Shown here piece after piece: positions 1 to 18,603 of a DNA stretch of 22,491 nt (position 1 is its first letter; each line of letters opens with the position of its first letter). The notes beneath the pieces were generated by a model. That model saw only the letters and a list, made by a program, of their open reading frames with translations, had not been told where the DNA came from and did no database searches. The stretch comes from a virus. The position numbers and the translations under genes are program-made. The stretch covers positions 1 through 22,491 of the IMG/VR virus record IMGVR_UViG_3300025892_000172; one strand, 5' to 3'.

Positions 1-1278
1 ATTGTAGCTCTGTGACTCGTCTTCATCCAGGCTTCTGATTCTCAAACTGTCCACGTCAAACTCAAGATCCACTTTCTGTCCAACACCAGAACTTGATCTT
101 GTTTTCATGAACTGTATCTGATACCTGCCACGTTCCTTCATTGCTCGGCTTGTGAATATACCTATCACGTTGTCTGCTGTCTGTATCTTAGATAGTCCGC
201 CTGATATGTGACTGTGGTCAAACTCTATCTCTTCGACCGATGCCCTGTTCAACTGTGATGCTGTTGCCAACACACACTGTTTCTCAACGACCAAGTTCCT
301 CAGTTCTTCTGAAACGTATTTGTCTTTGATGAACAAGTCTGCTGGTGATATCCTTTTGCTCTTTGGCATCATCAGATCCAAGTAGTCGATCAGTATGCAG
401 TCTATTTTCTTCTTGTTCTTGAGTTCTAATTCCTTGAGATACGTCCTAACATCCAACACGTTACTACCACTTGGCAGATATTTGATCTGCAGGTTACCTG
501 ACTTCTTCTTCAACATCTTGACCTTCATCTCAACGTTTTCTATTTCGGGAAATACTTTTCTTGTTGGAATATTTGTCATCATAGCATCCAATCTCATGGC
601 AGTCAGTTGCTCGCTCAACTCAAATGATATGTAACACACATTCAGTCCAGCCAGTGCCCAGTTGACCGCAAGATTCTGCAAGAACAAACTCTTACCTGCA
701 CCCGATCCACCTGCAAAGATGTTCAGCTCGCCTCTGTTGAATCCACCAAACAGTTTCTTGTCCAAGTTGGCCCAACCTGTACTGATCTGTCCGTTGTTGT
801 CTTTGAGTGCTTCAAGTCTTCCTTTTGGATCTTCAAAATAGTCCGTGCCGAGATCTCTTGTGAGGCCAACCTGTACTGCTTCCTTGACCATGTCCTCGAC
901 TGGACCATAGTCACCTCTCTCTAATAGATCAGCAGACGACAGTATTGCTTGTTCAAGTGCTTTGTGTCTACAAAATGTTTCAAACTCGTCCAGCAACCAA
1001 TTGAAATGGCTTGGGTCCAGATCCTTCGCTGTTTTTAATTTTATATCGTGTGATGCATTGACTATGTCAACTTCTGGCATGACCTTGTACTCGTCCATGT
1101 AGTCTTTGACGAACTTGGCGATTGGTTGCAGTTTACGATCAAATGATTTGGGATTGAATATGTTCTGTGCCCTCGCAAATGATTCAGCATCCGCCAACAA
1201 CATCTCTATGTACAATTTCTGCACATCAAAAGAATAATTCTTAGCCTGGTGTTGTTCGTTGTTATCGTAATCAGCCAT
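1..1278 (-). CDS. 41: Replicative DNA helicase, T4 gp41/DnaB type (3' end cut by window)
   Basis: Hexameric 5'-3' helicase that unwinds DNA at the phage fork and partners the primase encoded just upstream. The frame is open from the ATG at 1278 to base 1, giving 426 residues with no stop, so only the C-terminus is missing (T4 gp41 is about 475 aa). Walker A GGSGAGKS is at residues 190-197. ISFEL (217-221) carries the likely catalytic Glu, and Walker B is in CILIDYLDLM (294-303). A RecA-like C-terminal core with ATASQLNRAS follows. The N-terminal 140 residues are helical, as expected for the DnaB-type collar. The start overlaps the primase stop by 8 nt (ATG inside the last primase codons), and AAGAGAAAG just upstream can serve as ribosome binding site. 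Family assignment is secure; the gene number follows T4 by analogy. Confidence 0.93.
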   Translation of the reverse strand, partial: MADYDNNEQHQAKNYSFDVQKLYIEMLLADAESFARAQNIFNPKSFDRKLQPIAKFVKDYMDEYKVMPEVDIVNASHDIKLKTAKDLDPSHFNWLLDEFETFCRHKALEQAILSSADLLERGDYGPVEDMVKEAVQVGLTRDLGTDYFEDPKGRLEALKDNNGQISTGWANLDKKLFGGFNRGELNIFAGGSGAGKSLFLQNLAVNWALAGLNVCYISFELSEQLTAMRLDAMMTNIPTRKVFPEIENVEMKVKMLKKKSGNLQIKYLPSGSNVLDVRTYLKELELKNKKKIDCILIDYLDLMMPKSKRISPADLFIKDKYVSEELRNLVVEKQCVLATASQLNRASVEEIEFDHSHISGGLSKIQTADNVIGIFTSRAMKERGRYQIQFMKTRSSSGVGQKVDLEFDVDSLRIRSLDEDESQSYN

Positions 1279-2284
1279 ACATCTTTCTCTTCAAATCTAT
1301 TTTCAGTTTACTTGATTCTGTCGTTTTCAGTATCGATTGTATAGTAAACAGTCTACCATATTTTAACACAGCATCCGCCACATCGCCAACCGTTTTGTCC
1401 CATTCTGGAAATGCCACGCTCCATCCAAACTCCGTCGCTTGGTCTACCAGTTTCTGTCCTGGGGCATCTCTGTCCGGCACTACGATAACCTGTCTACCAA
1501 GTCCATCTATCAACTCTCGCTGTGTGTCATTTATCTCCGATCCCAGTATGCTCACACCAGAAACGGCGATGGCATCAAAAGGTCCTTCTGTGACTAGCAC
1601 AAATTTCCTAGTCCAGTCCTGTGCGTCCATGTTGAACACGTATCCAGGCCACACGTCTGTGTAGTATTTGACAGCATCTGATTCCTCGAACATCCTGCCT
1701 GTGAATCCAACTACTTCACCTCGCCAGTAGAATGGTATCAGCAATCTTTGGTGTACGTCCCAAATCTTATCAGGTGAGTACATGAAGTCATACCAGTCAG
1801 CACCTATGCCTCTGCTTTCCAAATATTTCAACAGTCCGTCTATCTTCTTCCATTGTGGTTCCGTGAGATCGTTGCCCACATACTTCTCCAGCCATACATC
1901 CAGTTTGTGTGCGTTCTTGGGCAGTGTCTTGTTCTTGAATGTTACAAATTTCTTCTTCTCGTACTTGACATCACCTTCCTCCTCACGCATGGCTTCTATA
2001 GCCAACTTACGTATTGTGTCCTCCGGTATACCTATGTAACTCATAAACTGTCTCATCTTATATGTAAGTTTACGTCCTATCACGTAACTGGCCTTGAAGC
2101 CACAGTTGAAACAGTGGTAACTGACTGTGCCGTCCGCACTGGTCATAAGTCCGCCACGCTTCTTCTTGTCAGCGGTCTCTCCATTGTAAACACAACAAGG
2201 TGCGTTGAAACTGATCCAACCGCTTGGGGTCTTCTTTCTGTTCGCAGGAAGACTAGTCAGAATTGTATTCTGTATAAGATTCAT
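1271..2284 (-). CDS. 61: DNA primase, T4 gp61 type
   Basis: Synthesises RNA primers for lagging-strand replication in complex with the gp41-type helicase. At 337 aa it matches the length of T4 gp61 (342 aa). An N-terminal zinc-ribbon-like region has cysteines at 30/31 and HCFNC at 57-61. A TOPRIM domain follows: LVTEGPFDAIA (230-240) with the conserved Glu at 233, then VVPDRDAPG (268-276) with the DxD pair. The gene begins 13 nt after the stop of the upstream structural gene. A near-consensus early promoter lies within that upstream gene's 3' end (2323..2295), so primase and helicase can be expressed early and independently of the late structural gene. The leader would be only about 4 nt and no Shine-Dalgarno is evident. 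Confidence 0.92.
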   Translation of the reverse strand: MNLIQNTILTSLPANRKKTPSGWISFNAPCCVYNGETADKKKRGGLMTSADGTVSYHCFNCGFKASYVIGRKLTYKMRQFMSYIGIPEDTIRKLAIEAMREEEGDVKYEKKKFVTFKNKTLPKNAHKLDVWLEKYVGNDLTEPQWKKIDGLLKYLESRGIGADWYDFMYSPDKIWDVHQRLLIPFYWRGEVVGFTGRMFEESDAVKYYTDVWPGYVFNMDAQDWTRKFVLVTEGPFDAIAVSGVSILGSEINDTQRELIDGLGRQVIVVPDRDAPGQKLVDQATEFGWSVAFPEWDKTVGDVADAVLKYGRLFTIQSILKTTESSKLKIDLKRKMYG

Positions 2285-2294
2285 AATCTATACT

Positions 2295-2323
2295 ATTTTA
2301 CTGCCTATATAGGATTTTGTCAA
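2295..2323 (-). promoter_or_regulatory. Sigma70-like early promoter for primase-helicase
   Basis: On the minus strand, -35 TTGACA (2323..2318) is a perfect consensus. A 17-nt spacer is followed by -10 TAAAAT (2300..2295). It sits over the last codons and stop of the structural gene and points at the primase start at 2284. The predicted transcription start, about 7 nt after the -10 box, is near 2288. Seen directly in sequence; activity is inferred. Confidence 0.75.
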
Positions 2324-3101
2324 TCACGCCAGTGTTACCACTGTCGTTGCCCCAACTGAATCTCACACTGTGGTAAACACCCGTGAAGTTGAAGTTGGAT
2401 ACTGTTGTAGAATTTGAGAAAGTATTCGCCGTGGATCCTGCACCTTCCATGGTAATATCAAAATAGTCTGAGTTGCTTGGTGAAGCACTCATTGTTCCTT
2501 GCACCCGCAAAGCACCTGAGAAGTTTTTTGTGTACACAGCAATCGTGTGCAAAGCCTTGTTGTTGTTGATGCCCGGTCTGGAATCTATTGAGCCTGATGT
2601 GTATGCTAGTGGACCTCCTGACGCCGTGAAACTGGAAACACTAGTACTTGCTACAAATTCCGGATAAGCACCATCTAGCAATTCTATCGTGCCAGCGGCC
2701 GCATAACCTGTGTCTGCATACGTGATCTCTCTGCTACCATCTGATTTCACTTCACGTACAGAGAAGTTGTAGAACTTGGCATCCAGTGGTAATAGGTCAC
2801 CCTCTGTGATAGTACAACTAGCGTCACCCTTTGTGCTGACAGTGGATCCGTCATCTAGTATGCTTAACGTCTTTGTTAAGACCGCTTTCTTGCTCTCAGA
2901 ATCTATCATGTTGAACTCGTATGTTTTAGAAGTTATATCCTGTGCCTTCTGATCCTCGTTCTTGAACGTGAATGTGATTGGGTTTGATACCCCTCTGTGC
3001 AGTGTTAGGCGTCTATCGTACACTTTTGAGTTCCTTCCGGTATAACCATTTATGTAGGCTATTACCAATTGATTTATTAAATACCTTTGTACTGTTTGCA
3101 T
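2298..3101 (-). CDS. Putative virion structural protein, baseplate-upper/fibre-like
   Basis: A 267-aa protein with no catalytic motif. Residues about 30-145 have the pattern of phage BppU-type N-terminal domains: ITFTFKNEDQ, then alternating beta-strand text through TITEGDLLPLDAKFYNFSV and ADTGYAAAGTIELLDG. After a Ser/Thr/Gly-rich linker (about 150-185), the C-terminal 80 residues form a beta-rich module ending GVYHSVRFSW...GVIDKILYRQ, a composition typical of marine phage tail or fibre proteins. An exact T4 late promoter box lies 17 nt upstream of the ATG, which fits late expression of a virion part. This is notable because both flanking modules are early replication genes. The structural role is inferred from pattern and promoter; the exact position in the virion is unknown. 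Confidence 0.6.
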   Translation of the reverse strand: MQTVQRYLINQLVIAYINGYTGRNSKVYDRRLTLHRGVSNPITFTFKNEDQKAQDITSKTYEFNMIDSESKKAVLTKTLSILDDGSTVSTKGDASCTITEGDLLPLDAKFYNFSVREVKSDGSREITYADTGYAAAGTIELLDGAYPEFVASTSVSSFTASGGPLAYTSGSIDSRPGINNNKALHTIAVYTKNFSGALRVQGTMSASPSNSDYFDITMEGAGSTANTFSNSTTVSNFNFTGVYHSVRFSWGNDSGNTGVIDKILYRQ

Positions 3102-3133: not shown

Positions 3134-3508
3134 ATGAAGGAAATTTTTGCAACATTAAGGGATAAATTCCCATTCCTAAGCCTGATCAGAAAGGGCGATT
3201 TGGAGTATGTGGGCATAGTGCAGAACGAGGATGCCAATGTGATCAGTTTCTATGACTACGGCAGGCTGATGATGCCACAGGACAAGATGAAGTTCTTAAA
3301 GTGTGGGGAAACTTGGTGGCACGAGTCCAATCGTAAATTACCAATCAACATATTTCTCAAAGGTGAATTTAGATATTTCCGTTCAACCCTAATCACACTT
3401 AATTCTAAGGACGTTGAAATAGTACACGGCCCTACTGTAAAACTTTCTGAAATTTCAAAGAAACGGGTAAAAAGAAGAACTATCCAATTAGTGAGAAGAC
3501 CTACTTAA
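3134..3508 (+). CDS. Hypothetical protein, basic C-terminus
   Basis: Function not recognised. A 124-aa protein with mixed alpha/beta text; residues 20-60 (LEYVGIVQNEDANVISFYDY) look like a small beta-sheet domain. A strongly basic tail (KKRVKRRTIQLVRRP) could contact nucleic acid. It is transcribed divergently from the structural gene, with the two starts only 32 nt apart, and ends convergently by overlapping the 94-aa minus-strand gene by 8 nt. There is no clear Shine-Dalgarno; TATAGA at 3122-3127 sits immediately upstream. It is retained as real because its long frame has normal composition and fills the space between two opposing transcription units. Confidence 0.6.
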   Translation: MKEIFATLRDKFPFLSLIRKGDLEYVGIVQNEDANVISFYDYGRLMMPQDKMKFLKCGETWWHESNRKLPINIFLKGEFRYFRSTLITLNSKDVEIVHGPTVKLSEISKKRVKRRTIQLVRRPT

Positions 3509-3785
3509 TAACAGTCAAAAAAAAAGACCGCTGTCTGCGATCCCATCTAATTTTAATACCACGCTCTTTCCATAACTCTTGCCAGTATGGTAATTCCTGT
3601 TTGATCCAACGGGCATCCATTTGATCCTCTTTGTTTAGTATCTTCCACGTGTTCTTGGCCTTGGTCTTCCAGTAGTCTGTGAGAAACTTTGACAACGACA
3701 CGACCGAAAACGGTCCATCATTGGATAGGTCTACTACAGTGGGTTTGGATTTTTTAGTGAGTTTTTTATTTGTCTTGTTGTACAC
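3501..3785 (-). CDS. Small basic hypothetical protein (GTG start)
   Basis: Function not recognised. 94 aa, beginning with GTG at 3785 inside the 3' end of the mini-DnaE gene (20-nt overlap). The next in-frame Met is around residue 56, too late to keep the conserved-looking region. The first 15 residues are Lys/Asn/Thr-rich. The rest has many Trp and Lys (SKFLTDYWKTKAKNTWKIL; ELPYWQELWKERGIKIRWDRR), suggesting a compact helical, nucleic-acid-friendly protein. It is the last gene of the uvsW operon. A run of nine A (plus strand, 3517-3525) encodes Phe-Phe-Leu near its C-terminus. Confidence 0.6.
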   Translation of the reverse strand: MYNKTNKKLTKKSKPTVVDLSNDGPFSVVSLSKFLTDYWKTKAKNTWKILNKEDQMDARWIKQELPYWQELWKERGIKIRWDRRQRSFFLTVIK

Positions 3786-4356
3786 TAAAGTTATATTTAT
3801 GTTTTGTGATCAAATTCATCTGCACAACTATAGCCTGGGCATATGCCACAGCATGTGATTTCTTGAAGAAGTAACTGCCATCCGTGGGTTTCACCCAAAC
3901 TTCTTTCATTATTTCCACCCAGTCCTTGTACATTAGATTTCTCTTGGCAGGACGTATTATAGCCAACACAGCCGCAAGTTGTTCTATGGTCTTTGGTTCC
4001 AGTTTGGACACTATGTTGTAATGACCATTCAGGTGGAACAGATTTTGTACTATTTTTGGATCTTTCAGCATATCCCAATCTGGCTCCTGTATCATAAGCT
4101 CGACAAGTTCTTGTTCTGATTTAACATCCTTGTATATGTTCACATTAAGGCAGTCTATCTTGAAGTACCCTCGATCCTCCGCTTGTTTATAATCTAAACT
4201 TGCGTGTCTTGTTACAGGGTGTTCTGGCACTGCATGAAAGTAGACTCCGGTCTTGTGTTTTTCGCTTTTGCCATCCTTGATTATGGAAGCAGGTGTGTGC
4301 TTGAAAAGTTTTAGTGTGTTGTCTCGATCAAAGAAGTCTATGTCTACATCAGGCAT
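3766..4356 (-). CDS. Miniature DnaE-like (C-family DNA polymerase alpha) protein
   Basis: A 196-aa protein built from pieces that align in order with bacterial DNA polymerase III alpha. MPDVDIDFF (1-9) matches the PDxDxDF motif carrying the first two catalytic aspartates (D5, D7). TGVYFHA (36-42) and HPVTRHASLDYKQAEDRGYFKIDCLNV (46-72) match the segment leading to KFDFLGL, with the third catalytic Asp at D68. IVQNLFHLNG (102-111) matches the FQLES region, and LAAVLAIIRPAKRNLM matches the ALFRPGP region. FFKKSHAVAYAQA (163-174) matches the NKSHAAAYA motif. The PHP domain, upstream palm/GS motif, thumb and everything after the fingers are absent. Start ATG overlaps the upstream stop (TAATG), with AGGGAG about 10 nt before. 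Homology is read by eye but is multi-motif and collinear. Whether it polymerises DNA or acts as a replisome decoy or adaptor is unknown. Confidence 0.75.
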   Translation of the reverse strand: MPDVDIDFFDRDNTLKLFKHTPASIIKDGKSEKHKTGVYFHAVPEHPVTRHASLDYKQAEDRGYFKIDCLNVNIYKDVKSEQELVELMIQEPDWDMLKDPKIVQNLFHLNGHYNIVSKLEPKTIEQLAAVLAIIRPAKRNLMYKDWVEIMKEVWVKPTDGSYFFKKSHAVAYAQAIVVQMNLITKHKYNFSVQQDK

Positions 4357-4589
4357 TAGTGTACACTCCCTTTATCTTTCTCCGCGTGTTCAATCATTTT
4401 TTCCCTAGAACCAGGTTGTAACACCTCTAACACATCAAGAAGTTTTCTGTAACCTTCTGTTTTTATTATTTCTTTGTTAACTTTTGGCATTATCACTCTT
4501 CCGATAGATCCGTCTTCTTTGATTATCACTGCACAATCTCCGTCATCGAACTCCAAGTTATCAGACACTTCTAAATCTATCTTAGACAA
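4356..4589 (-). CDS. Small hypothetical protein
   Basis: Function not recognised. A 77-aa acidic protein: residues 1-30 are Asp/Glu-rich with a short beta pattern (CAVIIKEDGSIGRVIMP) and residues 40-75 look helical (YRKLLDVLEVL). It starts within the end of the zinc-finger gene (8-nt overlap) and its stop overlaps the mini-DnaE start by one base, so it is translationally coupled on both sides. That coupling supports it as a real gene and suggests, without proving, a role with its neighbours in replication. Confidence 0.7.
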   Translation of the reverse strand: MSKIDLEVSDNLEFDDGDCAVIIKEDGSIGRVIMPKVNKEIIKTEGYRKLLDVLEVLQPGSREKMIEHAEKDKGSVH

Positions 4590-5265
4590 TCTTGGCCTCC
4601 CTCGCTGTGTCTTGTACCAGCATGTGATCAGCAGGATAGCTCTTCAACTTGCTAGGCCAGAAACTTGGGTTTATAAATCTTTCTATCATTTGTAATTGTT
4701 CGTCGTTAAAAGATTTTAACATCCTTTTGCCTGCGTTGCAACCTAGCAACAGCCATGGACTTATCTTGCCTTGCTGTATGTGTTGTACCGCCCTGTTTTT
4801 GTTCACGAGTCTGAAGTAGTCAGACCACTGTGCGTTCTGTTCCGTGGCCCAGTCCATCATGGTTGCGATGCTCCTCTGTAGTGCGGCCTCCACGGGTTCC
4901 GATTTCAAGGCCTCAATCAAGTACAACTCGTACAGGTCATCCCTGGCCCAATGGTCCAGTTTTACTTTTGATTGTAACACATAGTCTATGTATTTTTCAG
5001 GATACAACGGGTTGACGTGCATGATAAATCTGCCAAACTTGACGAATGCGTTGTAGTATGAACTCTTGACGAAGTCATCATATGTTTTTGTCTTTGAATT
5101 GTGTTGGTGTATCTGATAGAATCTCTGGAACACCATAAATGCATTCACCACCCATTTCTCATCTCGTTGTAGATATCTTCTCTTGGGTTCACACAAGTGA
5201 ACTTGCAGTGTACGTTCTTTGGCAAACTCCTTGCCACAGTATGTGCATTTATTTGTCGATGCCAT
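4582..5265 (-). CDS. C2H2 zinc-finger-like hypothetical protein
   Basis: A 227-aa protein with an N-terminal zinc-finger-like motif: CTYCGKEF (7-14) followed by LQVHLC (20-25), giving Cys-x2-Cys and a His/Cys pair. The remaining 200 residues are helical and aromatic-rich (WVVNAFMVFQRFYQIHQH; KFGRFIMHVNPLYPEKYIDYVL; ISPWLLLGCNAGKRMLKSF) with no motif I recognise. The start overlaps the probable gp62 gene by 17 nt and the stop overlaps the next start by 8 nt. Position in the replication operon and the finger suggest nucleic-acid or protein binding in replication or transcription. The specific function is unknown. Confidence 0.75.
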   Translation of the reverse strand: MASTNKCTYCGKEFAKERTLQVHLCEPKRRYLQRDEKWVVNAFMVFQRFYQIHQHNSKTKTYDDFVKSSYYNAFVKFGRFIMHVNPLYPEKYIDYVLQSKVKLDHWARDDLYELYLIEALKSEPVEAALQRSIATMMDWATEQNAQWSDYFRLVNKNRAVQHIQQGKISPWLLLGCNAGKRMLKSFNDEQLQMIERFINPSFWPSKLKSYPADHMLVQDTAREAKIV

Positions 5266-5701
5266 GTGCTTCTATCAGTTCCTCTAGTTCTCTGTCGGTT
5301 ATCACCTTGTCCAATGTCTCTAGGTCTGCTTCCTTCCATGTGGGGTATATGGCCTGCAGTTTCTTAAGACTCTTGTTGGGCACACGCTTCATGGGTTTCA
5401 GCCATGGATGGAACTGCTGTGTCTCTGCTCCGCACATGGCGGTCAGTACCCATAACAGTTTCTTGTGTTTGCCCAATGCGAAACAGTGTTTGTTCACACA
5501 CTCGTTGACCATTTCAACATAGTGCTCTACATAGAATGGATCTTTAGATGAAACATTAGAAACGTATCTCATAAGCATGTAGGGAGAATACAACGACTTT
5601 TCTTTGTCGTCGATCCTGTCGAAGTAGTCCTTGTTCCTGAAGTCTACTGCTTTCAGTCCGTTTCTTAGATCAAAAAATTTTCTATTTTTTTCTGCTGGCA
5701 T
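5249..5701 (-). CDS. 62: Probable clamp-loader small subunit, T4 gp62-like
   Basis: 150 aa. The central pattern YSPYMLMRYVSN (about 39-50), HYVEMVNECVNKHCFALGK, then LLWVLTAMCGAETQQFHPWLK resembles gp62, where a Y-x-F/Y-M-hydrophobic stretch is followed by an Asn-containing helix and a basic/aromatic KR-x(n)-WxK segment. The helical C-terminus (YPTWKEADLETLDKVITDRELEELIE) also fits marine T4-like gp62 proteins, which are shorter than T4's 187 aa. In T4, gp62 works with gp44 to load the gp45 clamp; neither is in this window. Coupled by overlaps of 20 nt upstream and 17 nt downstream. The assignment is by remembered family pattern only. Confidence 0.55.
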   Translation of the reverse strand: MPAEKNRKFFDLRNGLKAVDFRNKDYFDRIDDKEKSLYSPYMLMRYVSNVSSKDPFYVEHYVEMVNECVNKHCFALGKHKKLLWVLTAMCGAETQQFHPWLKPMKRVPNKSLKKLQAIYPTWKEADLETLDKVITDRELEELIEAHGIDK

Positions 5702-5915
5702 ATTTTAGTGCGAACATCGTACAATCTTTCGCTGTTGCAAATGTTAATTTTAGTTTCTTGTTTTTGTGTTGTAAACCTGAAAATTGGAATTTGTTTTTCT
5801 TAATGAAATCAAAGAAATTGTGCATCCAATCTTCATCCATCCATACCGCAATCTTGTTGCTGGTAATCAGTATTGGTGCATCTATAGTGATTGATTTCCT
5901 ACCAGACTGAGCCAT
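5682..5915 (-). CDS. Small hypothetical protein
   Basis: Function not recognised. I chose the ATG at 5915 (77 aa, MAQSGRKS...) because AGGTGG lies just upstream at a usable distance and the overlap with the preceding gene falls to 17 nt. A GTG at 5963 would give 93 aa with a 65-nt overlap. The text suggests a small alpha/beta domain: two strands (ITIDAPILITSNKIAVWM), an aromatic helix (DWMHNFFDFIKKNKF), then LKLTFATAKDCTMFALKY. This resembles the shape of many small phage regulatory or RNA-binding proteins but lacks RegA's sequence. Confidence 0.65.
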   Translation of the reverse strand: MAQSGRKSITIDAPILITSNKIAVWMDEDWMHNFFDFIKKNKFQFSGLQHKNKKLKLTFATAKDCTMFALKYASRKK

Positions 5916-6402
5916 AGTCCACCTGTTCACACTGTCTCGATATGTCTTTAACAAAGTAGGCACACATGGGTTTTGGACCGTTGCTTAAAGGTACTGCCAA
6001 CATCTGTCCAGATTTGATCTTTGGGAAATACCATTTCACTTCTGTGTATATGTCTACCACATCTATAGGATAGAAATCAGGTTTTGGACTTGACAACGGA
6101 TTGAATGTGAAGGCGTCAAATCCCCTGTCGTTTAGACTTGTGATTGGCAAAACATGCATCTCGGATTGTCCGGCCTCACCTATCAACATCTTCCAATCCA
6201 GTGGCATCTTTATCTTGTGTGGTCCAATCTCTAACACCGCCGCTGGAGCATTGAAGCTCTCTAGGAATATTAAAGGTATGTAGAAGAAGTCTGGGTTTGC
6301 AGGATCTGAATTATCAAGCACAGCGAACCTTAGTTTCTCATCCACCCATTCTGGTATTTTCTCTAATTTGTATGTTCTGTTATCCAGTGTAAGGATTTTC
6401 AT
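5899..6402 (-). CDS. Hypothetical protein
   Basis: Function not recognised. A 167-aa soluble protein, beta-rich through residue 75 (MKILTLDNRTYKLEKIP; FAVLDNS; FFYIPLIFLESFNAPAAVLEIG). It then has a Pro/Asp-rich stretch (SSPKPDFYPIDVVDIYTEV) and a conserved-looking C-terminus (SGQMLAVPLSNGPKPMCAYFVKDISRQCEQVDYG). It starts inside the 3' end of uvsW (23-nt overlap), so it is translationally coupled to the helicase. No membrane segment or known catalytic motif was seen. Confidence 0.72.
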   Translation of the reverse strand: MKILTLDNRTYKLEKIPEWVDEKLRFAVLDNSDPANPDFFYIPLIFLESFNAPAAVLEIGPHKIKMPLDWKMLIGEAGQSEMHVLPITSLNDRGFDAFTFNPLSSPKPDFYPIDVVDIYTEVKWYFPKIKSGQMLAVPLSNGPKPMCAYFVKDISRQCEQVDYGSVW

Positions 6403-7846
6403 AATTTATCTTTTCTATATTATACGGGTAATTGGCCTCTTTGTAAAACTTTTTCCTTGCCCCTAGGTGTCTTTTCGCAAACTTGCAACTGCTGGTAATG
6501 TCCCAGATCTGCACACTGTCCTTATCTTCTGCTTTCCTGATTCCACGTCCTATGCTCTGTATAACCCTCACAAATGACTTGCCTGGCTCTATGAGAACAA
6601 GATTAAAAATCCTAGGAATATTAATACCAACAGCGGCCACTCCATAAGTGGCGATAATAACTTTATTTGTTGCAGTAGATATTTCATCATATTGTTCCTT
6701 TCTGTCTATGTTTTTAGTTGATCCAGACACGAACACCGCATCCTCAATCTGTTCTTCTAATATTTCTCCCGCGGATATCCTGTCTACAAGTATTAGTGTG
6801 TTGCCCGAACTTGATATGTCCTTGATTGTGCTGGCCACCCATTTCATCCTGGTCTTGTCTGTTGTGAGCCATTTCAATTCCTCTCCATAAGTTTTGAACT
6901 GCGGATGATCCTGTGTCTGGAGAACGTTCACATGACAATTTGCTAACACACCCTTGTCTTGCAGTTCGCTGGCCTGTATCCTGTTGGACACGTCACCTAT
7001 GCTACATTTCAATCCCATAAATTCGTAATCTGCTTTTGGTACTGTACCTGTAAGCCCCCAACGTATGCCACAGTGTGCGAATGGACCTGTGAGTAATCTC
7101 TTCAGCACATCTGCTTTGGCCATGTGTACCTCATCTATGATCACTGTGTTGATACCTTGTATGGCTTCTAAAAAATCTGTGGTATGTTCGTCTTTGCTTT
7201 TCTTTTCTAAAACATTCAGTGATTGCCATGTGGCTATCGTGTTGAAACGTCCCAGTTCTTTCCTGTCTCCGTAGTAAACACCAACATCTAAGTTACAAGC
7301 GATGAAATCCTCTTCGGTCTGTGTCACAAGACTCTTGTTTGGTACGATGGTTAATGTTCTTCCGTATGGTTCGACCAGTTGGCACAAGGCCGCTGTGATT
7401 ATGGTCTTACCTGCACCAGTGGCGATCTCTTGTATGCTCTGTGGATGTTCTATGAACTTGTTGATAGTCTCTACTTGGTAGTCTCTCAATTCGATTGGTT
7501 GTCCTGCGGCCGGATGATTCTCGGGCCATGTTATGTGTGACAGATAGTTTTTGTCCACTTGTTTGAATTCGAAGTTGTGTTGCTCTCTTCTATCCTCAAC
7601 ATCTATGTACACACCGCCTTCATCCAGTATGGGAAGTATTTGATCAACTAGGTTTAGGTATGTTGTGCCACCCAAACCAAAGAAACTGACCTTACCATCC
7701 CACCTACCCAACTTCACTGCTGGTAGATGTCTAGCATATGGTATCTCGTATTTGAATTTGTTGGACAGTCGCTTACGCCATTCGAGGCTCAGGTTCTCGA
7801 ACTTCACGTTCACCTCATCTTTTATTACTAGTTTACAACTGCTCAT
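6380..7846 (-). CDS. uvsW: UvsW-type SF2 DNA helicase
   Basis: ATP-dependent branch-migration helicase that remodels R-loops, stalled forks and recombination intermediates, and helps shift T4-like phages from origin- to recombination-dependent replication. 488 aa, against 503 for T4 UvsW. The N-terminal substrate-recognition domain includes WDGKVSFF at about 49-56. Motif I ATGAGKT is at 142-148, DEVH box at 238-241, motif III GLTGT at 264-268 and motif VI QSIGRGIRK at 430-438. The protein ends around 488 without an extra domain. Start ATG lies two bases from the stop of the 448-aa gene, with no Shine-Dalgarno, implying coupled translation. Very secure family call. Confidence 0.95.
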   Translation of the reverse strand: MSSCKLVIKDEVNVKFENLSLEWRKRLSNKFKYEIPYARHLPAVKLGRWDGKVSFFGLGGTTYLNLVDQILPILDEGGVYIDVEDRREQHNFEFKQVDKNYLSHITWPENHPAAGQPIELRDYQVETINKFIEHPQSIQEIATGAGKTIITAALCQLVEPYGRTLTIVPNKSLVTQTEEDFIACNLDVGVYYGDRKELGRFNTIATWQSLNVLEKKSKDEHTTDFLEAIQGINTVIIDEVHMAKADVLKRLLTGPFAHCGIRWGLTGTVPKADYEFMGLKCSIGDVSNRIQASELQDKGVLANCHVNVLQTQDHPQFKTYGEELKWLTTDKTRMKWVASTIKDISSSGNTLILVDRISAGEILEEQIEDAVFVSGSTKNIDRKEQYDEISTATNKVIIATYGVAAVGINIPRIFNLVLIEPGKSFVRVIQSIGRGIRKAEDKDSVQIWDITSSCKFAKRHLGARKKFYKEANYPYNIEKINYENPYTG

Positions 7847-9259: not shown

Positions 9260-9742
9260 ATGAAAAAGACCAGTAAGAAGACTGTCACAGTCAGGAAACA
9301 ATTGAAGATCAGATTGGAAAATACTCTGACTATGCGGAAGAACACACGGAACTTCAGACCCACACACTCAATAGTTGTAACTTGGTTTAAACATCTTAAC
9401 AAGGGATTATTTGGTAATCAGTTACCCACTGTTCCAATGTACTTGGTAAGGATGACCAATGACTGGGGCAGATGTTGGGCTAATTGGGACAATAGGAAAT
9501 GTAGGAAAGGTTCTTACGACCAGAGTGTGATACCCTATGACAAGACTGATGTGACTTTTGCGATAGAGATACACACCAAGTATCCAACGTTCAGGGACTT
9601 CATAGAAACACTAGCACACGAGATGGTACACCTGTACCAGATGACTGTGATCAAAGATCCTTACAGCAATCACAACGCCAACTTCTATGCGTTCAAGAAC
9701 AAGTTTAAAAGTGCTGGATTGACCTTATCAAGAACCGGCTAA
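9260..9742 (+). CDS. SprT-like zinc metalloprotease
   Basis: 160-aa protein with the SprT/Spartan-type zincin signature: LAHEMVHLYQ with H120, E121 and H124, and a third ligand probably H138 in SNHNANFY. The preceding region contains the SprT-like W-x-N strand text (RCWANWDNRK, 72-80) and a beta strand before the helix (DVTFAIEIH). Family members cleave DNA-protein crosslinks or other proteins; the phage substrate is unknown. The N-terminal 30 residues are very basic, which would suit DNA association. It lies alone on the plus strand, divergent from the uvsW operon, and its 3' end overlaps the convergent gene by 15 nt. TAATAT at 9245-9250 is a weak candidate -10 very close to the ATG. Confidence 0.8.
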   Translation: MKKTSKKTVTVRKQLKIRLENTLTMRKNTRNFRPTHSIVVTWFKHLNKGLFGNQLPTVPMYLVRMTNDWGRCWANWDNRKCRKGSYDQSVIPYDKTDVTFAIEIHTKYPTFRDFIETLAHEMVHLYQMTVIKDPYSNHNANFYAFKNKFKSAGLTLSRTG

Positions 9743-10477
9743 CACGGTTCCCTCAAACTCTTTGTAACTCATGATTCGACTGTTACCCAAGTCCGTGCCT
9801 GTTTGTAGATGATTTAAATATTCCGGTGGATCATCATGCACCACTGTGTAGTTCACATATGGTCTCATCTTCAGCATGTCTCTGAATTGTTTAAGCCAAC
9901 CTTCGAAGATCTTATCATCGTTCCGTTCTCCGTAACAGGTCGTGTCCTGGTATATGTTGTTTAGTTCTCCCTTGCCGTATTCCCTGAAGTCAAATCCTAG
10001 TAGGTATATATTCTTGTGTCCATGCACACCTGCTGTCCAGAAAGCGGCATTGCCTGATATCCAATGTGGATTGTTTGGTATGAGATTTATCATGCCCTTA
10101 CTCTGTTTCCTGTTCACTTCTAGTGCTGGACCGTAGTGTACAGTCTTCAATCCAACTTCGTCCTCTACCATCTGCATTGACATCTTAGTGTCAACTGAGA
10201 ATATAAAGTCAGGCATGAAGTCTCTATACAGTGCATTACATCCGTACGTCTGACCTGTTGCCTTTAGTTTTGTAAGATCAAAATCCTTACGTGAAGGACC
10301 GTTACCTATGCAGTAGGCGTTGCCTCGAGGTACCGCCTTGACTTTGTCTTCAAAGAACCTGATGTCTTGTATTCGTTTGCCTTGCCTGATTGTAGTGTTT
10401 ACGATTACATCCTCTCCCTCATATTTTTTCCATATGATAGGCTCAATTTCTTTTTTGCCGATGTTTATAGTTTGCAT
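9728..10477 (-). CDS. GT42/DUF115-like glycosyltransferase-superfamily protein
   Basis: 249 aa from the ATG at 10477, chosen because GGAGA lies 10 nt upstream and it overlaps the preceding stop by one base (TAATG). A TTG at 10519 would add 14 residues inside that gene. Motifs: YCIGNGPSRKDFDL (55-68) followed by YGCNALYRDF (78-87), then WISGNAAF (139-146) and GHKNIYLLGFDF (153-164). Bacterial sialyltransferases of GT42 (Campylobacter Cst-II) and DUF115/MptE-like proteins share this order: a GNGPS nucleotide loop, a CN-containing strand, a SG helix and an IYLxGxDF strand. The GT42 catalytic histidine segment is not obvious. The CMP-sugar donor is therefore only a possibility. Last gene of the minus glycan operon. 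Confidence 0.6.
   Translation of the reverse strand: MQTINIGKKEIEPIIWKKYEGEDVIVNTTIRQGKRIQDIRFFEDKVKAVPRGNAYCIGNGPSRKDFDLTKLKATGQTYGCNALYRDFMPDFIFSVDTKMSMQMVEDEVGLKTVHYGPALEVNRKQSKGMINLIPNNPHWISGNAAFWTAGVHGHKNIYLLGFDFREYGKGELNNIYQDTTCYGERNDDKIFEGWLKQFRDMLKMRPYVNYTVVHDDPPEYLNHLQTGTDLGNSRIMSYKEFEGTVLAGS
9732..9750. terminator. Hairpin at convergent gene ends
   Basis: GAACCG (9732-9737) and CGGTTC (9745-9750) form a perfect 6-bp stem with a 7-nt loop spanning the stop codon of the SprT gene at 9740-9742. It lies where two convergent genes overlap. No U-tract follows on either strand, so it may be a weak bidirectional stop or an mRNA 3'-end stabiliser. Confidence 0.4.
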
Positions 10478-11346
10478 TATATATATTTCTCCTGTAGCCT
10501 TGCCCTGATCCTTGCCCATGGTAGTCCTTGTTCTATCTCGTCCTCAAACCATTCCGTGTACGCTAGTTTGTTTGCCCACGTTACCCGGTTGGGCATGGCC
10601 GGTGTGTTGATATCTGCTAACTTAATGTTACCCACATCATGGCACAGACTTGATTCCGATACGAACACAGGTATGCCTTTCATCACTGCTTCCATGGCTG
10701 GATTGCTGGAATGATTGATCACTGCCCAAGTTCTTTCAAGTGTTGCTTTAAAATCTGTGTCGTCATAGGTCCTGAAATCTCGTTTTGGTAATCTTACCTT
10801 CACGTTTTTGAATTTGTTCTCATCGAATGTAATCGTGTTACGAGGATGAGGCCTTACCAAGACAGGCCTTGTGGTGTATTTCCTTATTTCATTTATCTGT
10901 TGTTCGATCCAGTTGGACATCTTAGGTAATCCTTTCCATTGCTCTGATGTGTCATGCTGTCCACATATCACTATCAGCTCTCCGGTTGGATTCCATGGTC
11001 GAAATTCATGTTTGAAGAGTGGCCATCGTTCATCATCAAAATCTTGGTTGGCGAAGTCGGCATCTCTGTTTATTCCGTTTATTCCAATTTTGAAACTGAG
11101 ATTCCTACGCAGTCCTCCCACCTCAATGACAATCACAGGTTTGCCTTGGCTCCTATAACGATCCCATATCTTTTTGTAATTCTGCATCCTGCCACGCCAT
11201 AACACACTCCAGATCACTGCAACGTCACCGTTGGTTTCTTTGTTCACATGTACCTGGTCTCCTGTTTTCTGCATAGATTTTATGAATTTTGCAAAGATGT
11301 CTTTGCTGTTCAATGGGCCATGCATGGGCCATGCTTCTATCCTCAT
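10477..11346 (-). CDS. GT-B-like surface-polysaccharide transferase, paralogue A
   Basis: 289 aa, resembling the capsule-polysaccharide KpsC/LipB-like GT-B group. The C-terminal half carries VRPHPRN (164-170), NHSSNPAMEA (211-220) and GIPVFVS (224-230). It ends with DVGNIKLADINTP and LAYTEWFEDEIEQG. The same signatures recur in three other proteins of this window, so this is one of four paralogues. The N-terminal half (MRIEAWPMHGP..., VAVIWSVLWRG) would be the acceptor side. Donor and acceptor are unknown. The start shares one base with the upstream stop (TGATG) and its stop overlaps the GT42-like start, giving tight translational coupling. Confidence 0.7.
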   Translation of the reverse strand: MRIEAWPMHGPLNSKDIFAKFIKSMQKTGDQVHVNKETNGDVAVIWSVLWRGRMQNYKKIWDRYRSQGKPVIVIEVGGLRRNLSFKIGINGINRDADFANQDFDDERWPLFKHEFRPWNPTGELIVICGQHDTSEQWKGLPKMSNWIEQQINEIRKYTTRPVLVRPHPRNTITFDENKFKNVKVRLPKRDFRTYDDTDFKATLERTWAVINHSSNPAMEAVMKGIPVFVSESSLCHDVGNIKLADINTPAMPNRVTWANKLAYTEWFEDEIEQGLPWARIRARLQEKYI

Positions 11347-12266
11347 CAGTTGCCTTGCTTCCCTTTGGCCACCTTGCTCATTATGTCGTCTGCCTGTTTT
11401 GGATCAAACTTCACACCACCGAACGGATCATAGTTCTCCACGTTCTTCCAGTAGTCCTCGTTCCTGTTTCCACGTAGGTCACTCTTGCTACTTTTGCCTT
11501 GCACTTTCCTTTTGCCTTTCATGTGGTCCACGTATGCTCCCAACACGCTGTTGATGAACACATGATGTCCTTTGGCGCCTGCACCTTTGCCTATGTCCAC
11601 CCCGTCGTTGGGTGCCACACGTTTGACACACTGCCAGAACAGGTAACTGTCATGCCATTCTAACTCTTTGAATATGGTGTCCTCGGTGTAAAGGTCTGTC
11701 CAGTACTGCATGAACTCTGTGATTTTTGGATGCTTCTTGTTGTAGCACACCCACCCGCATTCTGGATATTTTTCACCCCTACCCAGGAAGTTCACGAGCT
11801 TGTCTTCAGGTAACAGTCCAGTAACGAACTCTGTTGTGATTGGTCGGAATGTGTATGTGTCAGCGTCTAACCACAGAACATAATCTGTGGTGATTGTTTT
11901 TATCGCGTGATCCACTGCAAAGGTCTTGTGTGCGAATCTCACAGCGTCCCATAGGTAAGAACCCTTGCCCTTGTCATTTTTGCCTGCGTTGGGATCTCGT
12001 CTGACACCACCTGGTACTTCGTCCACTTCGCCGTTGGCCACAGGATCGTCCTTGTGTCTCTGTTTGAATTTGACCAGTTCAGGACAGGCATCTTCTATGT
12101 TGATAAATTTAATCTTTGGATGTTCCAGGGTTGGTTTCTTGCCTTCGTGATATGCATACAGGATAACATCGTCAGGCCAGAATTGAACATGGCTCTCCAA
12201 CATTCTTTTTGCATACGCTGTCCATCTGTTTGGTGGGAAGGTCGTAACTACAGACAATGATGTCAT
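11346..12266 (-). CDS. GT-A-like glycosyltransferase
   Basis: 306 aa from the ATG at 12266, which overlaps the upstream stop by one base (TAATG) and begins directly at the first beta strand (MTSLSVVTTFPP). An upstream start at 12332 would extend into the previous gene. A GT-A nucleotide-sugar fold is indicated by VLWLDADTYTF (130-140) with the DxD metal-binding motif at 134-136. An acceptor-region text follows (ECGWVCYNKKHP; WHDSYLFWQCV). A long Lys/Asp-rich loop sits at about 70-105. Usually such enzymes add a hexose or amino sugar to a glycan or lipid carrier. The C-terminal 50 residues are charged and probably flexible. Confidence 0.72.
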   Translation of the reverse strand: MTSLSVVTTFPPNRWTAYAKRMLESHVQFWPDDVILYAYHEGKKPTLEHPKIKFINIEDACPELVKFKQRHKDDPVANGEVDEVPGGVRRDPNAGKNDKGKGSYLWDAVRFAHKTFAVDHAIKTITTDYVLWLDADTYTFRPITTEFVTGLLPEDKLVNFLGRGEKYPECGWVCYNKKHPKITEFMQYWTDLYTEDTIFKELEWHDSYLFWQCVKRVAPNDGVDIGKGAGAKGHHVFINSVLGAYVDHMKGKRKVQGKSSKSDLRGNRNEDYWKNVENYDPFGGVKFDPKQADDIMSKVAKGKQGN

Positions 12267-13249
12267 TATAAGCCTAACCTCTGTTTGAATCTTTTGTACA
12301 CTGTTCCATCCCTTATCTCTTGTATACTCCATAACTTGTAACCTAGGTCATTCACCCACTGTGTCCTGTCAGGTGTCCTTGGAGTTTCTATATCGTTGAG
12401 ATCCTTGTTACACACGTCCCAACAAAGTGCTAGGTCTGATGTGCAGAACGTTGGTATCCCCCTTATGCAACTGTCAACACTGGCAGTGGAGTTGTGTGTT
12501 ACCACAGCATGTGCATTCGCAATCGCTTCCTGGAAATGGAATCTGTAAAATTTCTTTTCATCTCCCGCGAAGTGTTGCTGTGTATATTGCAGTTCCACGT
12601 CCTCTGGAAAATCATCCTTTCGTGCGACAATGGATGCGACATGATTTGGATGGGGACGGACTATGAATTTTCTACTGGTGGCAGGTCTTAACCTTTCGTA
12701 AACTTCGTTGAACCACTCTATGGGATCTAGTTCGTTCATGCTCCAGTTGTCCTTGGGTTGCAGTACAAATATTATGGGATCGTCTTGGTTAGACTTACGC
12801 CATGGTTCGTACTTGACCTTGAATTTCTTCACCATCATGTCCCAACGATCACTTGGACTGTTGTCAGACAGGAAGTCTCCATCGTTCATTGGTGTGTACA
12901 AAGACACCCTGAAATGGTGATCGGGTGATGTTGACACGTTACCAAAACTAGATAAAAGTCCTCCGTCAAATGTTATCAGCGGAATCTTTTTGTCTCTGCA
13001 ATTATTAGCAAGTTCCCTACGTCTGCCTTTGGTGTGATGCATCTGCTTGTCACCACCGTATCCAAACATGGCCGCCATGGGTGCAGTGGGTGTCATCTCA
13101 CCTTCTACGGTTGGTCCAGACCGGTTCTCATTGACTATCACCGCTTCATCGCCCGCGGCCTCTATGCCTTCCTTGAGATGATAAAGTAACTCGTAACTGT
13201 TGCCACGTTTACGGTCCTTTACCGTCCTCCTGAATATTTCAACTTTCAT
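12266..13249 (-). CDS. GT-B-like surface-polysaccharide transferase, paralogue B
   Basis: 327 aa. Signatures match paralogue A: IVRPHPNH (196-203), VTHNSTASVDS (250-260), GIPTFCT (264-270). The end is DLNDIETPRTPDRTQW...LGYKLW and EIRDGT. N-terminal MKVEIFRRTVKDRKRGNSYELL and FGYGGDKQ differ from A, suggesting a different acceptor. The start overlaps the upstream gene by 11 nt and the stop overlaps the GT-A start. The RPHP motif and Asn/Ser-rich loop suggest a nucleotide-sugar-binding C-terminal Rossmann domain of the KpsC/LipB-like type. The specific sugar cannot be read. Confidence 0.7.
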   Translation of the reverse strand: MKVEIFRRTVKDRKRGNSYELLYHLKEGIEAAGDEAVIVNENRSGPTVEGEMTPTAPMAAMFGYGGDKQMHHTKGRRRELANNCRDKKIPLITFDGGLLSSFGNVSTSPDHHFRVSLYTPMNDGDFLSDNSPSDRWDMMVKKFKVKYEPWRKSNQDDPIIFVLQPKDNWSMNELDPIEWFNEVYERLRPATSRKFIVRPHPNHVASIVARKDDFPEDVELQYTQQHFAGDEKKFYRFHFQEAIANAHAVVTHNSTASVDSCIRGIPTFCTSDLALCWDVCNKDLNDIETPRTPDRTQWVNDLGYKLWSIQEIRDGTVYKRFKQRLGL

Positions 13250-14051
13250 TCAACATCCTCCACGCTGTGCCGTTGGCCATTTCTTGTAGTGTCCAGTTAT
13301 TATATGCTAGACTGCTGAATAATGCAATCCTGTCTTCGTATTTAGGTGTTTCTATCTTGCTTAAATCCGTCTCAGATATAGGAGCGGCCGCACTGTTGTT
13401 GGGATCGCAGAATACAGGCACGCCATTTGTGAGGCTGGCCACCATGGTGTTTGAGTTGTAGGTCACTGTTGCATAATAATCGCCCCAGTTGATATTGCCC
13501 TTGTGGACAGTAGGCCTATCAACCTTTACAGTGGCACCCACGTGATCGATTTCGATTGTTGGGTTGTAAGGTTTTTCCCTTACGTCTATTTGTCTATCGG
13601 TGTGCTGTTCGAGTATTTTCAATGTGTTGTCTAACCAGTCAGTTGCATCAAAGAAGTTCGCTATTGCGTTTGTTGGCGGCAGGACAAGAATTTTCTTGCC
13701 CTTGTTCCATGGTTTGAGATCTTGCCTGAAATGTTTTTCATACCTGTCTGTGGGTCTCTGTTGTAGTATGTTCTGACAGTGATTGTTCTTGGTTATACGT
13801 AACCAGTGTGGACTGTCATGAGCATTAGTGAAGTACCCGTGATCCATGAAATAGAAATCTTTGTTCTCCCTCTCACACCATTTGTACACTTCACCAGAAC
13901 CTGCCAGTATGCCGTACATGGTAAGATTCTCCTCAGGTAATGATTTCAAATCTCTAAACTGGTATATCCTGCCCTGACCGGATCCACGAACGAAAGCATC
14001 TACATAACGTTGTGTTCGCGGTTTGGTCGTGTGTATGCCTGACAACATCAT
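13239..14051 (-). CDS. GT-B-like surface-polysaccharide transferase, paralogue C (variant motif)
   Basis: 270 aa. Shares VTYNSNTMVAS (196-206), GVPVFCD (210-216) and DLSKIETP...LAYNNWTLQEMANGTA with the other paralogues. The RPHP motif is replaced by VREKPYNP (157-164). Its N-terminal half (ILAGSGEVYKWCERENKDFYF; HGYFTNAHDSPHWLRIT) aligns with paralogue D on the opposite strand rather than with A or B, defining a C/D subgroup. Tandem ATG codons at the start; ATGA overlap with the oxygenase stop at 14048-14051. Likely a glycosyltransferase or a degenerate relative. Confidence 0.66.
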   Translation of the reverse strand: MMLSGIHTTKPRTQRYVDAFVRGSGQGRIYQFRDLKSLPEENLTMYGILAGSGEVYKWCERENKDFYFMDHGYFTNAHDSPHWLRITKNNHCQNILQQRPTDRYEKHFRQDLKPWNKGKKILVLPPTNAIANFFDATDWLDNTLKILEQHTDRQIDVREKPYNPTIEIDHVGATVKVDRPTVHKGNINWGDYYATVTYNSNTMVASLTNGVPVFCDPNNSAAAPISETDLSKIETPKYEDRIALFSSLAYNNWTLQEMANGTAWRMLNES

Positions 14052-14797
14052 CTTCTGTTTTCCTTGACCTCAAACATTTTACGTCCGGCCGCCCTGTTGA
14101 ATTCTGCAATTATGTTCACACTCCTCCTATGTAATACGGCATCTCTCCTGGCCGATACACTGTGTACGCATCTTGTTGAATTGTTACAGAACACGACTAG
14201 TGTGTTTGCTTTGTAAGGGATTGTCTTCACAATTCTGCCTGCCTTCTCTTTTACTTCTCTACCGCCGTTTTTATTCACTTCTGAAATGGTATCATGTGTT
14301 TCGTGTATCTGGAATTCTCCACCTGTGCTTCGATCCTCTTTGTATGGCATGTAAAGTAAGGCCGCGTATATCTCTCTGGGGTTGTCTATGTGTGCAGTCC
14401 TTGAACTGTAGTCTATGGGCTTGTGCATCACTGTCTGACAGTCTGTTCCTATCTTGTCATGGCCTGTGTCCCAGCCTCTTGGACTCAATGTTAGGTCTTC
14501 TATGTGGGGGACCAAATCGCCAAACACTTCGGTCATTTGTTTGTAAAATTCCATTGATGTGTGGTACTCGGTGAATTCTTTCCATAGATTGGAAACTTTT
14601 TCCGGTTTCAACATCTCATCTGCTTTCAGCCTGTAACATATACCCGAATCAAATGGCTCGGTGGACAGCAGTTGTTCTTTGGGCCATTCCTTCTCAAGTT
14701 GATCGTACACATCTTGGGGCAGTGCATCCTCGATCACGAAATGTGGATAAGGCTCTAGCACAAGTTTGGGTTTCTTTTGTAGCACTGATAGGTTCAT
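14048..14797 (-). CDS. 2-oxoglutarate/Fe(II)-dependent oxygenase
   Basis: 249 aa with a double-stranded beta-helix oxygenase pattern: AHIDNPREIYAALLYM (135-150) carries the HxD iron ligands H136 and D138, and TRCVHSVSARRDAVLHRRSVN carries the distal His (H212) and an Arg (R224/225) for 2-oxoglutarate. The strand GGEFQIHE sits between, as in prolyl-4-hydroxylase-like members. Such enzymes hydroxylate proteins, lipids or small molecules using O2 and 2-oxoglutarate. Its place between a GT61 and GT-B genes, with ATGA overlaps on both sides, suggests modification of a glycan, lipid or the glycosylated protein. The substrate is unknown. Confidence 0.82.
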   Translation of the reverse strand: MNLSVLQKKPKLVLEPYPHFVIEDALPQDVYDQLEKEWPKEQLLSTEPFDSGICYRLKADEMLKPEKVSNLWKEFTEYHTSMEFYKQMTEVFGDLVPHIEDLTLSPRGWDTGHDKIGTDCQTVMHKPIDYSSRTAHIDNPREIYAALLYMPYKEDRSTGGEFQIHETHDTISEVNKNGGREVKEKAGRIVKTIPYKANTLVVFCNNSTRCVHSVSARRDAVLHRRSVNIIAEFNRAAGRKMFEVKENRR

Positions 14798-15882: not shown

Positions 15883-15896
15883 TTAATTAATAATTA

Positions 15897-15905
15897 TGTT
15901 ATAAT
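15897..15905 (+). promoter_or_regulatory. Extended -10 promoter of the plus glycan operon
   Basis: TG-T-TATAAT at 15897-15905 is a perfect extended -10 element. No convincing -35 is seen. The predicted start, near 15912, is about two bases before the ATG at 15914, so the mRNA would be essentially leaderless. Confidence 0.6.
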
Positions 15906-15929
15906 ACACTACTATGATATTATTCTCAA
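15901..15929 (-). promoter_or_regulatory. Sigma70-like promoter of the minus glycan operon
   Basis: Minus strand: -35 TTGAGA (15929..15924), 17-nt spacer, -10 TATTAT (15906..15901). The predicted start is near 15894, 12 nt before the GT61 ATG. It overlaps the oppositely directed promoter at 15897-15905 and the first codons of the SGNH gene, so the two operons probably compete for polymerase. Confidence 0.65.
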
Positions 15930-18001: not shown

Positions 18002-18603
18002 TGTACCAATATTTGAAAGACCTGAAATCAAAACAAGAGTTCATGCCTTTGAGGATACTGGACATAGGTGCGTGGAACGGATTCTGGACCAAAAACGTTA
18101 AACCCATTTGGCCAGATGCTCATTACACATGCATTGAAGCAGGACAAAAACACGAGAAAAGATTAAAAGAAGTGACGGACGATTATCATATCGCTGTGCT
18201 TGGAGACAGTGACAGGGAAATTAAAATGTACCTGCGTGAAATTGACAAGGGAAACAAGAAAAAGGTTACATACACAAAAGGCTCAACAGTGTTTGGTATT
18301 TTTAAAGATTATGAGATCAGACAGATGAAAACGTTGGATCAGTTGGTTGGCAAGGATGCCCAGTATGATTTGATCAAGCAAGATGTTCAGGGTGCTGAGA
18401 TAATGGTCATGAATGGTGCTCCAGACATATTTACACGTGCCAAGTACGTGATACAGGAAGTTAATCTACACAAGGATAAGCAATTTCCGGAGATGCCATC
18501 TGAAAACGATATGGACGAGTACATGTTCCAACTAGGATTCAATAACAGTGAAGTGATAGAACAAAAACCAAACGCAGATCAGATAGATAAGATTTATTTT
18601 TAA
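17998..18603 (+). CDS. FkbM-family methyltransferase 2
   Basis: 201 aa. Motif I is ILDIGAWNGFW (20-30), followed by YTCIEAGQ (43-50). The hallmark is YDLIKQDVQGAEIMVMNGA (123-141), with Gln in place of the usual Glu after Asp-Val, and IQEVNLHKD follows. It starts four bases before the end of methyltransferase 1 (ATGA) and ends two bases short of the convergent transferase. A tandem FkbM pair suggests two different methylation positions or substrates on one glycan. Confidence 0.82.
   Translation: MMYQYLKDLKSKQEFMPLRILDIGAWNGFWTKNVKPIWPDAHYTCIEAGQKHEKRLKEVTDDYHIAVLGDSDREIKMYLREIDKGNKKKVTYTKGSTVFGIFKDYEIRQMKTLDQLVGKDAQYDLIKQDVQGAEIMVMNGAPDIFTRAKYVIQEVNLHKDKQFPEMPSENDMDEYMFQLGFNNSEVIEQKPNADQIDKIYF

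Follow-up and report, generated by a model that had tools for sequence, protein, structure and literature searches.

The window analyzed here is a 22,491-base fragment of an uncultured viral genome (IMG/VR record IMGVR_UViG_3300025892_000172) that carries a T4-type replication module, with UvsX, UvsW, a gp61-like primase and a gp41-like helicase all present around a 196-aa ORF (P0001) related to bacterial DNA polymerase III α. The ORF, hereafter the C half, exists at positions 3766–4356 as originally predicted, and lies on the minus strand, reading from 4356 to 3766 with GGGAG preceding its start and a one-base TAATG overlap with the preceding gene. In close relatives the block runs in the order UvsW, small ORFs, C half, convergent 124-aa ORF, variable ORF, primase and gp41. 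The phage replication neighborhood named in the original prediction is thereby borne out; its label 'T4-like' suits the replication genes, and the relatives include jumbo phages. Coordinates are collected in the table below.

Features of the window around and including the C half (positions in the 22,491-base stretch)
Positions	Strand	Feature	Evidence
1–1236	-	gp41-like replicative helicase, cut by window edge	93.6% to L034 ORF, itself matching annotated gp41 of RaK2
1271–2284	-	DNA primase (gp61-like)	
2298–3101	-	267-aa ORF; position kept, sequence variable	
3134–3508	+	124-aa convergent ORF, just downstream of C half in most syntenic loci examined	
3501–3785	-	94-aa ORF sharing 20 bases with the C-half end; many relatives have no match	
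3766–4356	-	C-terminal half of putative split minimal Pol III α, 196 aa, P0001	ORF, profiles, conservation, predicted fold
3841–3864	-	K165-K-S-H168-A-V-A-Y172 = E. coli NKSHSAAY	Sequence, alignment, conservation
3943–3954	-	R135-P136-A-K138 = E. coli FRPGP region, fingers	Sequence, alignment, conservation
4153–4161	-	K66-I-D68 = E. coli K553-F-D555	Sequence, conservation
4333–4353	-	PDVDIDF: D3, D5 metal-binding (E. coli D401, D403), D7 (D405); first residues past split point	Sequence, E. coli numbering, conservation
4356–4589	-	77-aa ORF, 1-base overlap with C-half start; translational coupling likely	ORF list
4582–5265	-	227-aa protein, phrog_11058; weak C2H2-like finger match at N-terminal start (below Pfam cut-off); conserved upstream neighbor	
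5249–5701	-	150-aa ORF, phrog_11758; neighbor kept in most loci examined	
5682–5963	-	93-aa ORF, same overlapping run	
5899–6402	-	167-aa ORF, phrog_11279; neighbor kept in most loci examined	
6380–7846	-	UvsW-type helicase	DNA helicase phrog_16; match to annotated UvsW of RaK2
21307–22455	-	UvsX/RecA-like recombinase	58% to annotated UvsX of RaK2

Several neighbors recur with the C half. A gene of about 120 aa, opposite the C-half end and reversed relative to its neighbors, occurs in nearly all loci examined (homologs in L081, L082, L084, L086, L102 and L240–L246), and the window's 124-aa version has no Pfam or NCBIfam match. In most of the relatives checked, the phrog_11058 protein is encoded upstream of the C half, and it may act as an accessory to the split enzyme described below. 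Between the two replication blocks, positions 9728–20651 hold ORFs that give the impression, from their translations only, of glycosyltransferase-, methyltransferase- and sugar-modification-like genes.

Profile search matched the C half to phrog_11778, annotated 'DNA polymerase' (E 3.1e-64), and to the full-length Pol III family phrog_405 (E 2.8e-7), and these values place its C-family homology, as first proposed, well beyond chance at the level of sequence; the Pfam finger model scored 15.5 bits, under its 22-bit cut-off. The Pol III motifs follow one another in the order first described. E. coli DnaE reads M399 P400 D401 F402 D403 V404 D405 and K553 F554 D555, which places D401 and D403 on D3 and D5 of the C-half start MPDVDIDF, D405 on D7 and D555 on D68. 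The three catalytic aspartates of the original prediction are therefore kept and its D68 stands, but its D5 and D7 were shifted by two and the correct pair is D3 and D5. A by-eye reading of H34 as E. coli H511 was dropped, since alignment puts H34 elsewhere. The C half shares with bacterial DnaE and PolC the palm aspartates, the K553/D555 motif, the FRP and NKSH fingers motifs and the fold (2hnh, 5lew, 3f2b), but is 196 aa long compared with 1160 for the E. coli enzyme: by length and alignment it has no PHP domain, full thumb, β-binding or tail domains, in line with the domain losses noted at the outset, and its sequence contains no GS motif. The span D5–D68 is 63 residues against 152 for D403–D555, matching the gap of about 60 first reported, and R135–K166 is 31 residues against 119 for R639–K758. 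About 90 residues are gone from the fingers, so polymerase activity is not assured.

We assessed residue conservation over 263 sequences, from which 37 without a C-half match (all from a scan for a second DnaE gene, below) and two truncated ones were excluded, leaving 224 untruncated loci that represent 186 distinct proteins. The four aspartates D3, D5, D7 and D68 are retained by 185 of these 186; in the sole exception, L103, the script had picked a wrong frame, and the correct frame keeps the aspartates. The conservation expected of the catalytic aspartates thus holds under the corrected numbering. K66 and P44 are kept in all 186 proteins, and R135, P136, K138, H168 and Y172 in 185. The count itself was free of any motif filter, and the underlying scans used conserved peptides: the window-query scan used six window peptides, one holding the D motif; the scan that fetched 80 C-half loci demanded a KSH-type pattern only; and 43 C halves came via the DnaE scan, with no C-half motif selected. 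In the 80 loci reached by the KSH pattern and the 43 reached through another gene, the aspartates were therefore not selected for. Against 78 of 80 close relatives (two were saturated) the median dN/dS of the C half is 0.038, at a median dS of 1.4 that is itself near saturation, and by this sequence comparison the gene is under strong purifying selection.

The GS-motif half of the palm, absent from the C-half polypeptide as the original prediction had noted, is not lost from the relatives but encoded by a second gene. This N half is a separate gene of about 174 aa (phrog_11127) that carries the GS motif and ends at approximately EFL[KR], and the C half begins at MPDxDIDF, where the N half leaves off. 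Cyanobacterial DnaE is likewise encoded as two genes, with a split intein; in the phage pair an intein-like extension is absent, the N half ending and the C half beginning directly at the motif. A tblastn search with the C half matched 81 records out of 50,697 from phages, with query coverage of at least 80% in 63; the 18 low-coverage records were excluded, and the 13 of these that were listed comprise 12 with a DnaE-like Pol III annotation and one unannotated record. C-half phages include RaK2, PBECO4/121Q, GAP32, CBB, PA5oct/MIJ3 and Atu_ph07, together with Phosso, XacN1, SCTP-2, one Vibrio phage, two Alishewanella phages and others, and the same two gene families (phrog_11778 and phrog_11127) occur in RaK2, CBB, PA5oct and Atu_ph07. 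CBB_328 and Atu_ph07 gp316 are N halves of 172 and 177 aa with the GS motif, ending EFLKW and EFLE, and the respective phage papers note the former as a truncated and the latter as a predicted Pol III α.

Pairing of the two genes in named phages is close. A search with Atu_ph07 gp316 returned 376 phage records, and the best 60 all fall among the 63 C-half records; the remaining 316 lower-ranked records include many Mycobacterium and Streptomyces phages by name. Both halves lie on one strand in all 60 best-listed records, as read from the listings. The distance between the two genes is 11 kb to more than 180 kb in the cases seen. The C-half records outside the best 60 are Slicko01, its sister Slickus01 (OQ508957) and the 109-kb PP728206; a profile located the N half of Slicko01. 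Phosso gave one N-half profile match at E 0.07.

We next examined predicted structures of both chains. AlphaFold2 gave a mean pLDDT of 90.9 for the C half, from 82 sequences, and of 91.3 for the N half of a related contig, G119, from 75 sequences. In agreement with the fold first proposed, the predicted C half overlays residues 400–784 of E. coli α (2hnh; VIA-align Z 8.7, rmsd 3.9, 186 aligned); its best 16 rows are all C-family (Z 6.0–9.6, including 3e0d at 9.6 and PolC 3f2b at 9.4), and the next row falls to 3.4. The N half overlays residues 271–393 (Z 10.3, rmsd 3.0, 101 aligned), its best 14 rows again all C-family (Z 7.7–12.6, with 5lew at 12.6) and the next at 2.3. These rows are a second look at Foldseek candidates whose E-values were weak (best 1.1e-3 and 1.1e-2). 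The two ranges on E. coli α abut without overlap, and in these models the chains together would rebuild the palm and a shortened fingers. By predicted fold, alignment and conservation, the D3, D5 and D68 positions sit in a C-family palm, and the C-half prediction also contains a helical fingers-like module. The alignments to cellular Pol III α leave N-half residues 1–63 (L319:8777–8965) uncovered, and these are possibly a small phage-specific domain.

Environmental sequences extend both families. IMG/VR yielded 296 confirmed C-half relatives with the window as query and at least 599 with a broader alignment, and at least 587 N-half relatives. The best 80 of these N-half loci are all stand-alone frames of 159–212 aa (310 in L127) that stop no more than seven residues past the E-F-L position, just before the C-half start motif. 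L127 was omitted from the N-half alignment for its longer upstream open frame; it lies on a 191-kb contig (G057) without a C-half or UvsW match, which gives the impression of possibly being a chimeric assembly. C halves also occur on 335-kb and 153-kb contigs in genome bins. A bacterial and archaeal genome collection gave 11 C-half matches, all of them in the same gene block and in records whose titles mark them as metagenome bins; a clearly cellular copy was thus not found there. These bins (L511–L521), labelled Pelagibacter, Verrucomicrobia, Neomarinimicrobiota, archaea and others, hold the phage gene block, which means that bins assigned to bacteria and archaea include phage contigs.

Among 50 N-half contigs drawn from the best 80, nine also carry the C half, including seven of the eight longer than 200 kb, and 41 show none, among them the 359-kb G064. 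UvsW is also absent from the five C-less contigs checked (G064 and four of 118–191 kb), so that these are either incomplete contigs or phages without the block; a C-half profile, run without a positive control, had no match on six N-only contigs. In the reverse direction, eight of the 14 C-half-scan contigs longer than 60 kb have a stand-alone N half, including all seven above 100 kb, and of the other six, two match only within a longer DnaE frame and four show nothing. A 144-kb contig with a C half that was reached via a 561-aa DnaE (G101) has no stand-alone N half. C-half loci share 15 metagenomes with the L154-type N-half set and six with the general N-half set (59, 60 and 77 distinct metagenomes), which is only suggestive of pairing, and no near-identical shared genes linking N-half to C-half contigs were found. 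A B-family polymerase, expected at the outset for such phages, is present by family model in 27 of 28 large relatives, including G119.

For the window itself, no GS-motif ORF is among those listed for the 22.5-kb fragment, and a frameshift or a split into adjacent ORFs was rejected because no such ORF adjoins the C half. G119 (196,581 bases) is close to the window (C half 80% identical, UvsX 90%, UvsW 82%) and carries both halves on one contig, the N half as a stand-alone gene, along with a B-family polymerase and a gp44-like clamp loader. The window's lineage, judged by this relative, has both halves, and the window's own record shows the C half only.

Part of the marine group encodes a further C-family enzyme, a PHP-less Pol III α of 561 aa located about 5–8 kb downstream of the C half, beyond gp41. 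It matches the Pfam NTPase (2e-43) and finger (5e-15) domains; its NCBIfam matches are all far under cut-off, with error-prone DnaE first and nearly tied with replicative DnaE, so we call it DnaE-type only. This gene appears on eight of 49 C-half contigs tested (of 80), and among 14 marine contigs that extend 9 kb or more past the C half on the downstream side it is present in seven and absent in seven. G119 stops short of the site, which if occupied would sit just off the window's left edge; examples are L096:1495–3180 and L323–L402. None of the eight larger contigs that carry both halves has the 561-aa DnaE, their two weak matches being the N halves, and it was not found in any of five named phages searched, which keep the C half. 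Conversely, 19 of 19 longer contigs with the 561-aa DnaE (up to 144 kb) show no stand-alone N half. Neither gp44 nor PolB was found in 12 of those 19 and two similar DnaE contigs, with G119 as positive control, and the N-half region therefore probably lies off these contigs. Marine phrog_11127 matches were rejected as partner candidates, eight of them being the DnaE frame (seven of 565–568 aa and one cut frame of 92 aa). Tentatively, and with more doubt than confidence, some marine phages of this lineage may carry three DNA polymerases, a B-family enzyme, a two-chain mini-C-family enzyme and, in the same gene block, a single-chain PHP-less DnaE-type enzyme, with division of labor or chain exchange among them. 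If so, the two-chain enzyme, at about 370 aa in total, would be perhaps the smallest C-family polymerase.

We consider it likely that a minimal C-family DNA polymerase is built here from two chains and that the C half is the C-terminal one; assembly, catalysis and role are predicted as follows. The C half would supply the metal-binding residues D3, D5 and D68, K66 and a shortened fingers module, and the N half, encoded at a distance on the same strand, would supply the GS-motif part of the palm that holds the dNTP triphosphate. GS residues bind the triphosphate in cellular Pol III. The junction of the chains would fall in the loop that separates E. coli residues 393 and 399, giving an active site composed of two proteins. 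Such assembly is favored by the co-occurrence of the genes, by the strand they have in common, by the fixed split point and by the way the folds complement each other. With GS residues and metal-binding aspartates on different chains, neither chain should work alone, and the location of the GS-motif half on a second gene makes it unlikely that the C half is a stripped core with its own activity, as one form of the original prediction held. Because it would have no PHP domain, most of the thumb missing, and no β-binding or tail domains, the two-chain enzyme is probably distributive and suited to short tracts. The proximity of UvsX, UvsW, primase and gp41, together with a B-family replicase, suggests short-tract or repair synthesis over bulk replication, and we infer that the enzyme may serve repair, gap filling or recombination- or primer-linked synthesis beside the replicase.

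The other form of the original prediction, in which the C half alone is a non-catalytic decoy or adaptor engaging host Pol III partners (β clamp, τ) or template, went unsupported here and is quite improbable. Phages often use mimicry, and the helical fingers-like module would be compatible with such a role, but the catalytic residues rank with the best-conserved columns, the C-terminal tails in the relatives' alignment differ in both length and sequence with no common clamp-binding motif seen by eye, and the N half co-occurs in 60 of the 63 named tblastn records. Both this reading and stand-alone activity were set aside since the missing half is a co-occurring gene. Decay of an acquired bacterial dnaE, which heavy truncation might suggest, is almost certainly not the explanation given the dN/dS of 0.038, 186 distinct intact relatives and preserved synteny.

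We regard each of two further alternatives as unlikely. The C half could partner another C-family chain, the 561-aa DnaE or host DnaE, modifying its palm or competing with it. The position of the 561-aa gene downstream of the C half in half of the 14 sufficiently long marine contigs, and the missing stand-alone N half on the 19 longer contigs bearing it, would fit; the other seven marine contigs, the eight larger contigs with both halves and the five named phages keep the C half without that DnaE, however, and those DnaE contigs that were checked stop short of gp44 and PolB. The pair could instead assemble as a nucleotidyltransferase other than a DNA polymerase, acting for example on RNA ends, primers or proteins. 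Reduction of the 152-residue D403–D555 span to 63 and of the outer fingers implies a reduced template grip, and 27 of 28 large records already have a B-family replicase, but retention of R135, K138, H168 and Y172 in 185 of 186 proteins (with the KSH stretch part of the fetch pattern for 80 loci) argues against this reading. The two-chain DNA polymerase remains our preferred explanation.

The original prediction allowed that small DnaE-like ORFs might already have been noted, and the C half of the window is indeed probably a further case of the split Pol III α predicted by Iyer et al. 2021, there for group 2.2 jumbo phages. That study (PMC7824862) describes a phage-specific minimal Pol III α with distant N- and C-terminal genes alongside a B-family polymerase, proposes that it might serve one strand or repair, raises an 'ancestral' idea for it and states that split-version phages contain no other Pol III domains. 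Relatives such as G119 share with this description the C-terminal Mg- and template-binding piece, the distant N-terminal NTP-binding gene and the accompanying B-family polymerase, and the window's stand-alone C chain with DxDxD start, K-x-D, RP and KSH motifs is as in the jumbo-phage split enzyme (phrog_11778 and phrog_11127). The window differs from the group 2.2 phages in belonging to an uncultured, apparently marine contig set, and, unlike the statement of Iyer et al. 2021, some marine C-half contigs also hold a complete 561-aa DnaE, the longer contigs with this gene showing no stand-alone N half; the 561-aa gene thus bears on the claim of no other Pol III domains. Weinheimer and Aylward 2022 report that 51.9% of the phages in one marine jumbo-phage cluster have the PF07733 domain. 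A search of the open-access literature, with subscription papers and preprints outside its scope, found no experiments on the split enzyme.

New here are the scale, the exact split point, the residue conservation, the pairing count, fold matches that complement each other and the 561-aa DnaE close by. With the split site fixed, conserved residues identified in each chain and the two genes closely co-occurring in named phages, a short 2021 prediction becomes testable. If the two chains reconstitute activity they would define a minimal C-family catalytic core, and an active enzyme would help in studying the origin of Pol III and the reason that phages already equipped with a B-family replicase retain a C-family core. 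The analysis also exposes an annotation gap, the C half being commonly unlabelled as a polymerase. Homology indicates that RefSeq starts the Atu_ph07 C half (gp074, locus 12070; L082:11989–12070, NC_042013) about 80 bases too late, so the annotated protein omits the DxDxD motif; elsewhere in phage-record listings the C half is often filed as 'hypothetical protein' or under 'putative membrane protein'.
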